DNA from: Oscillospiraceae bacterium
GTDB taxonomy: Bacteria > Bacillota > Clostridia > Oscillospirales > CAG-272
Assembly: GCA_015063895.1 (NCBI GenBank)
Contig: SVTG01000011.1
Span: 1 to 55,583, forward strand
Direction of reading: 5' to 3'
DNA length: 55,583 nucleotides
Below the pieces are notes generated by a model that saw only the letters and a list, made by a program, of their open reading frames with translations, searched no databases and was not told the origin of the DNA. This document shows, piece by piece, positions 9,997 through 35,753 of this stretch. Position numbers and translations under genes: made by a program. Position 1 is the first letter of the stretch; each line of letters starts with the position of its first letter.

Positions 9997-10467
9997 CTAT
10001 TGATTTTGATTCGCAGCCTCATCTTCACTCGGCGGAAAGCTATCGGCAAATGCGGTAGCCAAACGGTCACAGCGCTCGTTATATGCGTGGCCCGCATGAC
10101 CGCGCACCCAGCAAAAGGTGACCTTGTGCTTTTTCAGCAATCCCAAAAGCTGCTCCCACAGATCAACGTTCAGAGCAGGTGATTTATCTGCCTTTTTCCA
10201 GCCGCGTGCACGCCAGCCCTCGGCCCAGCCGTTATTCACGGCCTCCACCACGTATCGGGAATCCGAGGTCAACGTGACCTCGCAGGGCTCACGCAATGCC
10301 GAAAGTGCGGCGATGACACCGCAAAGCTCCATACGGTTATTCGTCGTGTGAGGATCCCCACCCGACAATTCGCGCTCATGCTTACCGTACACCAAAACGG
10401 CGCCCCAGCCGCCGCGCCCGGGATTTCCTCTGCAGGCTCCATCGGTATAAATATCAACGTGCTTCAT
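9997..10467 (-). CDS. rnhA: Ribonuclease HI
   Basis: A 156-residue single-domain RNase H1 that cleaves the RNA strand of RNA-DNA hybrids. The four acidic catalytic residues are in place: D9 in YTDGACRGNPG, E47 in NRMELCG, D69 in TSDSRYV and D134 near NERCD, with the catalytic histidine H124 in RGHAG. The length matches the classical bacterial enzyme, and the basic-protrusion region (residues 80-100, WAEGWRARGWKKADK) is present. The C-terminal tail is acidic. The start overlaps the end of the upstream dtxR-like gene by 14 bases, so translation is probably coupled. It is the last gene of a four-gene operon led by two CNNM-like membrane proteins. The link between RNase H and metal transport may be only genomic convenience. 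Confidence 0.97.
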   Translation of the reverse strand: MKHVDIYTDGACRGNPGRGGWGAVLVYGKHERELSGGDPHTTNNRMELCGVIAALSALREPCEVTLTSDSRYVVEAVNNGWAEGWRARGWKKADKSPALNVDLWEQLLGLLKKHKVTFCWVRGHAGHAYNERCDRLATAFADSFPPSEDEAANQNQ

Positions 10468-10843
10468 TTTTCTTGTCCTTAAATGCCAAGAGATGCGTCT
10501 TCAAGCAAGCAATGGTCTCCTCACTGAGGTCATGCTCTATTTTACATGCGTCCTCCAGCGCCACCTCTCGTGAAACGCCGAGCGCCATCAGGACCTCCGC
10601 CAGCAAGCAATGACGCTCATACATGCGCTCAGCCACAGCCCTACCCTTTTCGGTCAAGGCAAGACCACCGCCTACAGCATCCGTAACAAAGCCGTTTTCA
10701 CGCAGCTCACGCAGCATAACGCTGACGGTGGGACGGGAAAATCCCAGCGCTGCGCAGATATCCACAGCTCTCACCTTTTCCTTCGTAGCGGAAAGAATCA
10801 AGATCTGCTCAAGATAATTCTCTCCCGATTCGTGAATAGCCAA
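10454..10843 (-). CDS. DtxR/MntR-family metal-dependent transcriptional regulator
   Basis: A 129-residue protein with an N-terminal winged helix (residues 5-70, HTH around AVDICAALGFSRPTVSVML) and the metal-binding dimerisation domain. It ends there and lacks the SH3-like third domain, as MntR does. The visible ligand set is H78, E83, C100, E103 and H104 (EDACKIEHDLS). The cysteine at position 100 is the DtxR/IdeR-type (iron) ligand, where MntR has glutamate. It sits directly after two CNNM/CorC-like genes in the same orientation, 22 bases from the nearest, and overlaps rnhA. It therefore probably senses Fe(II) or Mn(II) and may control its own operon. No clear operator palindrome was recognised at the operon promoter. 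Confidence 0.93.
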   Translation of the reverse strand: MAIHESGENYLEQILILSATKEKVRAVDICAALGFSRPTVSVMLRELRENGFVTDAVGGGLALTEKGRAVAERMYERHCLLAEVLMALGVSREVALEDACKIEHDLSEETIACLKTHLLAFKDKKNEAR

Positions 10844-31625: not shown

Positions 31626-31651
31626 CAAAAAAAGCCGCGCTACGCGCAGCT
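31626..31651 (-). terminator. Minus-strand terminator upstream of the CHR operon
   Basis: Eight-pair stem AGCTGCGC/GCGCGGCT (one G-U) with loop GTA, followed by TTTTTT on the minus strand. It would stop any transcript arriving from the metH side or antisense to the structured RNA. Confidence 0.65.
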
Positions 31652-31774
31652 TTCATGCAATCAACAATACTATTATATCATACCCGATCGCACTTGTAAA
31701 GTATAAAATGTGCATTTTTGCTATTTTCTGCGAATTTAATAAAAAATAATTGTTGATTTGTTACAATTTGCCGA

Positions 31775-31803
31775 TTGCAAAGCAGCTCAAAATATGCTAT
31801 ACT
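31775..31803 (+). promoter_or_regulatory. Promoter of the structured RNA
   Basis: TTGCAA (31775-31780), 17 bases, TATACT (31798-31803), preceded by an AT-rich stretch. Start predicted near 31809. Confidence 0.8.
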
Positions 31804-32115
31804 AAAGGCGAAGAAGAAAGGGAGGTACAGTCCAATGAAAACCTAAACTTCTCATCACAAAGCCAAAAACTGCGAGGTATACGCCGATGAGAACTTAACC
31901 ATCTCTTGTAAACCAAGCGCCGAGTGTGAAAACGGCACTACGGGAGTGCCGACGTTATGTGGGGTGCGCAAGGTTCACAAGACCCCCTACTTCGCCTTTT
32001 GCGGGACAAAATACCGAAAACCAAGGTTATTCTCCTCAAAGAATTTTAGTGCTGTGTTTTAAGTTGTATGCAAGCCGGGCAAAAGGTAGACAATAGAAAG
32101 AGAGGATCACAAAAG

Positions 32116-32145
32116 ATGTTAGATACCAAGAGCGAACAGAAATGA
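32116..32145 (+). CDS. Possible nine-codon ORF in the 3' part of the structured RNA
   Basis: ATG to TGA encodes MLDTKSEQK. AGAGGA lies about nine bases upstream, and the stop codon falls in the 5' arm of the terminator hairpin. This resembles a leader-peptide layout, but the ORF is too short to prove coding. A three-codon frame (ATG AAA ACC TAA at 31835) with GGGAGG before it also occurs at the 5' end. Confidence 0.25.
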   Translation: MLDTKSEQK

Positions 32146-32192
32146 CCCTTGACTTTGGCTGACAACCGGAGTCAAGGGTCATTTCTCTTTTT
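32140..32192 (+). terminator. Terminator of the structured RNA
   Basis: Perfect 15-bp stem AAATGACCCTTGACT (32140-32154) with its complement at 32170-32184, a 15-base loop, then CTCTTTTT. Confidence 0.92.
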
Positions 32193-35718: not shown

Positions 35719-35753
35719 AAATGTGTATATTTCAGCTGACCACAGAGGTAACT

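Follow-up and report, generated by a model that had tools for sequence, protein, structure and literature searches.

What is transcribed from a strong promoter and ended by a strong terminator when no ordinary gene lies between them? The question is raised by a locus in the window (the whole stretch of DNA analysed, 55,583 nt of an Oscillospiraceae bacterium; contig SVTG01000011.1), where promoter search and locus comparison place a main promoter with a TG extension (TTGCAA-17-TATACT, 31775..31803, + strand) ahead of an intrinsic terminator that compensatory pairs support (32139..32192, +; 18-bp stem 32139-32156/32168-32185 and T-tail). The predicted transcript (31810..32192, +), with its 5' end set by the -10 spacing and its 3' end by the terminator, contains no long ORF in the ORF list of the window. 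Minus-strand genes flank it, namely two chromate transporter genes, one MFS and one SNF transporter on the left, and a MetH-like gene and a methylenetetrahydrofolate reductase gene on the right. The gene immediately downstream is convergent, and the next long + strand ORF with a protein family, a CitMHS/ArsB transporter, lies at 35721. An Rfam 15 scan of the window returned just two tRNAs at or above the gathering score, both beyond 54 kb, and no family reached that score within the RNA region (6S, tmRNA, OLE, ROOL, GOLLD and RNase P included); in 20 homologous loci, the scan found only tRNAs, Gut-1 and ZTP. The raiA motif (RF03072), a structured RNA widespread in Bacillota according to PMC11706538, had been offered as a possible identity, but its covariance model matched neither in the window or the RNA region nor in any of 98 genomes, one of which is the window's own, a search that carries little weight alone because the control genomes were silent too. 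The transcription unit 31775-32192 is real. The earlier note was right about its strong promoter, its strong terminator (stem 32139-32185 with T-tail), the lack of a normal gene inside and of a same-strand gene directly behind, and its status as an autonomous, unrecognised RNA, conserved in relatives and not the leader of a following gene.

The answer suggested by comparison of the homologous loci is that this RNA is built around very short ORFs. Near its 5' end, two predicted three-codon ORFs (hereafter, mini-ORFs) follow strong ribosome-binding sites: GGGAGGTACAGTCCA (31820..31834, +), supported by the SD pairing energies of the family, precedes mini-ORF 1 (ATG AAA ACC TAA, MKT*; 31835..31846, +), and AGGTATACGCCG (31875..31886, +) precedes mini-ORF 2 (ATG AGA ACT TAA, MRT*; 31887..31898, +), the last three features being supported by motif counts. 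At the other end, a ribosome-binding site beginning AGAAAGAGAGG (32095..32115, +; family mean anti-SD pairing -13.6 kcal/mol, n=132) precedes a putative nine-codon 3' ORF (ATG TTA GAT ACC AAG AGC GAA CAG AAA TGA, MLDTKSEQK*; 32116..32145, +), the stop codon of which lies inside the terminator stem. The most conserved parts of the family are these predicted translation signals (mini-ORFs and 3' ORF) and the promoter. The earlier note had overlooked both three-codon ORFs, the nine-codon ORF running into the terminator, the 3' structured domain and a divergent promoter with its terminator.

Of 98 genomes compared by BLAST, the window's own among them, 32 carry the RNA, with the strongest similarity at both transcript ends. 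A pattern search for the 3' end returned at least 117 stretches of GTDB genomes, and among the 80 matches listed, all were MAGs titled Oscillospiraceae, Clostridia, Faecousia or Eubacteriales bacterium. The working set, after removal of near-identical copies, comprised 132 loci. A model of the 3' end matched in 36 of the 247 genomes of the order, a count that includes two inspected weak false matches and at least one partial one, with up to four loci per genome; one genome (G249) carries three loci with different peptides. Across the class, 11 of 393 genomes matched, and eight beyond the window's genome scored at least 82 bits; weak matches, two in the class (L188 and L189) and two others (L164 and L165), were ordinary terminators. 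The phylum sample comprised 298 other genomes, none with a convincing member; three matched at 33-34 bits, two of them in ordinary coding or terminator sequence. The third (L230), from another class of the phylum, carries an 8-codon ORF (MLEVERTG*) that lies directly behind a normal gene and whose end falls within the terminator stem; 350 nt of sequence showed no mini-ORF. This locus possibly hints at a wider habit of terminator-overlapping micro-ORFs.

The two ends of the RNA were also modelled separately. A 5'-module model, based on sequence only, spans the promoter to the mini-ORF stop and has no sequence in common with the 3' model. It gave 35 matches of at least 37 bits in the 247 genomes of the order, a cut-off set after seeing the list, and 34 of the 35 lay, by eye, on the same strand and no more than about 600 nt upstream of a 3'-model match; the model was trained on 43 loci found via the 3' element, and at least the window is among the matches. 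The sole match without a 3' match (L242) marks where a longer small gene begins, and the low-scoring matches (210 of 247 genomes at E 0.001) read as AT-rich promoter look-alikes. By this co-occurrence, the 5' and 3' halves belong to one family. Viral contigs gave no match to strict 3'-element patterns in two attempts (one scan covering 2.9 million contigs), and two mini-ORF patterns gave 13 and 23 matches there, about as many as a rough estimate of chance gives, so a phage origin was rejected. Among these mini-ORF matches, L211 truly belongs to the family (67 bits), and L209 and L213 score only 21 bits. The true member, IMGVR_UViG_3300032167_001270 of IMG/VR (10413-10519, - strand), is complete with the 3' ORF MEPNSEEK, and its adjoining gene looks cellular by eye. 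Literature searches on the peptide forms, on minimal ORFs or minigenes with small RNAs and on clostridial structured or small RNAs, which did not extend to supplementary tables, found neither this RNA family nor an expressed or named relative; an unnamed entry is possible in large candidate lists such as those of the surveys PMC8040213 and PMC11109978. The comparative evidence places the RNA in a family of autonomous micro-ORF transcripts of Clostridia that is as yet undescribed.

The mini-ORF motif, seen by inspecting about 30 loci, consists of a strong SD, GTACRGTCC or GTGATACC, R, ATG, six bases and a stop; the family form can be written as a strong SD, CC[A/G] and AUG-NNN-NNN-stop, one to four times per RNA. 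In 121 loci with at least 500 nt of upstream sequence, 144 motif sites lie no more than 600 nt ahead of the 3' element, and 117 of them open ORFs of exactly three codons (eight more open ORFs of two). Occurrences of the motif elsewhere in these loci give exactly three codons in 18/382, and other ATGs of the same stretches in 49/1009. The excess persisted in the 109 loci that exclude those first used to see the motif (105/131 vs 17/372 elsewhere), making the motif definition independent of the sequences counted. The stops of 126 short ORFs are TAA (103), TGA (17) and TAG (6), and the encoded peptides take 49 different forms (MKT 12, MNK 11, MYK 9, MYR 9 and 45 others). In these predicted mini-ORFs, therefore, length is conserved, and peptide and codons are not. 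A pattern fitting both window mini-ORFs has only those two matches in the 1.86-Mb genome, with none on the other strand and none for a reversed control pattern. Pairing of the mini-ORF SD with the anti-SD, assuming a canonical 16S tail, averages -16.2 kcal/mol (n=124). For long ORFs, each taken at its best candidate start, the mean is -10.8 (n=258), and random positions give -5.6 (n=396). The first AUG lies a median of 21 nt from the predicted transcript start (96 loci). By motif, 78 of the 121 loci have one mini-ORF, 12 have two, eight have three and 23 have none; one locus (L177) has four by eye. Loci without a motif mini-ORF include some that have lost the start or stop (L149, L121 and the first copy in L122), one that starts with TTG (L140) and some with nothing recognisable, so mini-ORFs cannot be essential in every locus. 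A GG...CC hairpin in the ribosome-binding site of the mini-ORFs was considered and dropped, its pairs failing across variants by eye.

The 3' ORF shows a different kind of conservation. All 120 pattern matches (120/120) encode M-L/I-D-x-K.., a result largely forced by the pattern itself, and a less biased set was formed from 34 ORFs of 8-10 codons, taken from covariance-model copies plus L211. In these, synonymous codons are used freely (Leu TTA/CTA/CTG/TTG/CTC, Asp GAT/GAC, Glu GAA/GAG, Pro CCC/CCT/CCG), an extra codon after ATG is optional and TTG serves as an alternative start. The peptides form two classes without crossing, L-D-(I/T/F/N) in 24 of 33 and (L/I/x)-E-P in nine of 33, with Pro following Glu in 9/9 and Asp in 0/24 (Fisher p 2.6e-8 for 33 of the 34 ORFs, nominal only because the sequences are related); the 34th (L169) has neither Asp nor Glu. 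Two members missed by the script agree with this division: MLDIKNSRS* (L170, ATG..TAG) has Asp without Pro after it, and MTEPKHSGNNP* (L175) has Glu-Pro in 11 codons, with its stop deeper in the stem. Paralogues retain M-L-D/E-I/P, the second half of the peptide varies widely, and the peptides are polar by eye. Codon-level comparison thus shows amino-acid-level constraint on the predicted 3' ORF. Its stop codon generally lies in the basal part of the terminator stem, in which 11 of 18 pairs show compensatory change and 97.8% of cells are paired (45 sequences; 0/500 shuffles as high). Within this stem, a UGA stop stands opposite UCA and a UAA stop opposite UUA, implying that stop codon and terminator stem are kept together.

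Covariation also marks a structured domain before the 3' ORF (31994..32087, +), composed of an outer helix (31994-32001/32080-32087) and inner helices (32017-32021/32056-32060 and 32029-32033/32040-32044). In an alignment of 34 window-type sequences, chosen by eye from 69 with the outer helix, 14 of 19 pairs change on both sides and 88.1% of cells are paired, compared with 0/500 shuffles as high and 41-58% for slid alignments. The outer-helix percentage is inflated since the sequences were selected for it, which does not affect the inner helices (79.9 and 83.3% of cells paired); a free consensus fold of the same alignment gave the outer helix only. We regard the covarying domain as real, and its covariation suggests an RNA-level role in addition to the coding one. 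The earlier note had seen an ornate structured RNA closed by a 10-bp helix (31804-31813/31990-31999) and crossed by two pseudoknots, and only part of this picture survives, as a covarying 3' domain at other coordinates. That helix is complementary in the window, but at least nine pairs form in just three of 59 loci with a recognisable 3' arm, and with a predicted start near 31810, six of its ten pairs would be untranscribed; it shares the GCCUUU left arm of the real outer helix and pairs it upstream with mostly untranscribed bases. The first arm of the longer pseudoknot (31824-31833/32004-32015) is the mini-ORF ribosome-binding site, and its partner GGAC..UACC is found by eye in the nearest relative and not in L005; the shorter pairing (31961-31965/31982-31986) may close a hairpin, a pseudoknot not being demonstrated. 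Both proposed pseudoknots were rejected for lack of support. Folding of the full 383-nt RNA beats shuffles (z -3.82), but 31810-32100 alone does not (z -1.15; 28/200 shuffles equally good), so most of the fold stability comes from the terminator end. The middle of the RNA is by eye the least conserved part. A mid-RNA motif, CACGGCGGTG, mostly followed by (T)nACGC..ATATAGAT, occurs in 41 of 132 loci (e.g., L012, L022, L027, L031); the window lacks it and has a different hairpin, GGCACTACGGGAGTGCC, at the corresponding place. An anti-SD hairpin loop acting as a switch was rejected, as the loop sequence is by eye not conserved.

Upstream, a divergent sigmaA-type promoter with a TG extension (TTTACA-17-TATAAT, 11/12; 31672..31700, - strand) was identified by promoter search. 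Of the 132 loci, 96 have a mini-ORF and sufficient upstream DNA, and in these a single conserved block comprises the main promoter, a spacer of near-constant length and this divergent promoter. The best match to the divergent promoter reaches at least 10/12 bases in 94 of the 96 loci and 12/12 in 50, compared with 21/960 and 0/960 when the same search was run on mononucleotide shuffles, and the -35 to -35 distance of the two promoters is 73-77 bp in 84 of 96 loci. The divergent transcript would begin GUUGGG.. or AUGGGCG... A terminator search placed an intrinsic terminator of an approximately 40-nt divergent transcript at 31630..31654 (-) in the window. Across the family, 49 of 96 loci have a terminator stem no more than 130 nt from the assumed start, its end lying at a median of 29 nt (shuffled controls 5/480, elsewhere 19/387), and in the other 47/96 none was detected. 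Where a consensus promoter runs into a terminator some 30 nt on, the product could be a hairpin RNA of about 35 nt, or the promoter could be a 'dead-end'. The block between the promoters (31701..31774), of nearly fixed length, contains TTTCTGCG, an A-tract and a TTGTnAAn3nTTACAA-like palindrome (by eye); its conservation in sequence and length suggests a specific regulator.

Comparison across the family supports well the predicted translation of the mini-ORFs and the 3' ORF, and from it we infer translation in the cell, tethered re-initiation and a physiological role of the RNA. The reading that we rank first, with slightly less than an even chance, is an autonomous micro-ORF mRNA whose ORFs would be short enough for tethered ribosomes to re-initiate, holding ribosomes and making a micropeptide. 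Unusually strong SD sites would recruit ribosomes to the mini-ORFs, and a ribosome there would form two peptide bonds, terminate while the SD-antiSD pairing still holds and re-initiate on the same AUG. Each RNA would hold several cycling ribosomes, which would protect it and feed repeated synthesis of the terminal micropeptide, and each passage across the 3' ORF would open the terminator stem, tying the RNA 3' end to translation; the output would be the micropeptide or the held ribosomes themselves. A precedent measured in vitro, on other mRNAs, is given in PMC6495379: ORFs of 2-8 codons are cited there as translatable reiteratively without ribosome dissociation, each ribosome is reported to make about 71 rounds on the 7-codon mccA mRNA, and 30 and six rounds at 11 and 15 codons, and a figure legend names ribosome binding to mccA as an inducer of transcription termination. 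Such a mechanism suits a family whose ORFs have 3 and 8-10 codons and SD sites of exceptional strength. More specifically, the RNA could be dedicated to holding ribosomes, with a start-stop minigene array selected only for length and SD strength, which would park cycling ribosomes and buffer or throttle translation capacity, while the terminal micropeptide ORF would couple translation to the 3' end and the other arm of the promoter pair would yield the ~35-nt hairpin RNA; we consider this elaborated version doubtful.

The closest likeness is to mccA of microcin C operons, which according to PMC6495379 combines a strong SD, a reiteratively translated ORF of 2-8 codons and a terminator just behind. 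The mccA ORF of about seven codons behind its strong SD is matched here by ORFs that are slightly longer (8-10 codons in the 34 ORFs), but the peptides mostly end in Lys and not in the C-terminal Asn that MccB modifies (one, in L179, ends in Asn), and several ORFs occur per RNA. No ThiF-like mccB lies among the seven window neighbours (SNF symporter, MFS, two chromate transporter, MetH-like, MTHFR and CitMHS/ArsB genes) or, elsewhere in the family, among the 25 commonest neighbour families listed (142 proteins). Dual-function small RNAs such as SgrS/SgrT and RNAIII are likewise autonomous and combine an ORF with structure; their ORFs are tens of codons long, and an array of minimal ORFs is seen only here.

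Ranked second, and rather unlikely in our estimate, is a plain micropeptide gene, in which the 8-10-residue peptide would be the product and the mini-ORFs would merely stabilise the mRNA through a ribosome near its 5' end. Strong 5' SD sites stabilise mRNA in Gram-positive bacteria, and the 21-nt median distance of the first mini-ORF from the predicted start is as expected on this account, as are the amino-acid-level constraint and the M-L-D/E-I/P retained by paralogues. Such a gene does not account for as many as four mini-ORFs, of which some lie a long way from the 5' end (L177 and L168), for the widely varying second half of the peptide or for the lack of a partner gene conserved alongside. 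Much less probable is a regulatory structured RNA, the 3' domain of which would act by target pairing or protein binding while ribosomes on the short ORFs set folding or lifetime. The three covarying helices speak for it, but a class-level paralogue lacks the middle structured domain, its three tandem mini-ORF units (MFR*, 45-46 nt apart) being joined directly to the 3' ORF (L186); moreover, the window fold without the terminator end equals shuffles and the middle is least conserved.

Lambda bar minigenes are two- or three-codon ORFs with an SD, and a toxic minigene or translation sink of that kind, shut off via the inter-promoter regulator and carried as a patchily spread accessory module, would suit the strong SDs, the ORFs of 2-3 codons and a distribution that is patchy, with multiple copies in some genomes. 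Here, however, the codons are free and the ORFs sit in several copies per transcript on a chromosomal autonomous RNA, no antitoxin or defence family appears among the 25 commonest families listed (142 neighbours), and viral contigs contain no strict-pattern match; we hold this reading very unlikely. Neither does the locus resemble a type I toxin-antitoxin system, which pairs a small hydrophobic toxin ORF with an overlapping antisense RNA: the peptides are polar, and the promoter on the other strand of the conserved unit faces away from the RNA. The stop codon within the terminator stem would be natural in a leader or attenuator whose downstream gene is switched on when 3' ORF translation melts the terminator. 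Against this stand the convergent next gene in the window, a downstream gene that runs in the same direction in 81 of 136 cases and in the opposite one in 55 (duplicates included), and 270 flanking proteins that fall into 189 clusters, so that the conserved same-strand downstream gene typical of a cis-regulatory leader, riboswitch or attenuator is lacking and the reading is highly improbable. Among the first 142 of 199 nearest neighbours, no common family was found, at most five sharing one, and flanking clusters and neighbour families show no conserved neighbour gene or defence island.

If the first-ranked reading, with tethered ribosomes on micro-ORFs, is true, length-fixed and codon-free three-codon ORFs would mean selection for starting and stopping translation and not for a product. 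Strong ribosome-landing sites for three- and nine-codon genes look like a new way of using translation. The family would offer a genetic handle on SD-tethered re-initiation, add a family of 8-10-residue micropeptides far below the usual gene-calling length limit and account for a transcript that many uncultured Clostridia of the gut encode.

Several loci depart from the common arrangement. In L168, 10-codon ORFs (MRLNFKSPIK and MRVAFQAPIK) alternate by eye with mini-ORFs before the 3' ORF MVLDFKSEQK, and each ends just before a mini-ORF SD, resembling a duplicated micro-operon. Tandem 3' elements, two or three per contig, occur in L122, L090 and L158, with mini-ORFs upstream in L122 and L090. 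In L243 and L244, an 8-codon ORF (MVPAVCSL*) in GGGTGAGTCCAATG or GGGACGAGTCCAATG context lies upstream of genes for long, probably secreted proteins.
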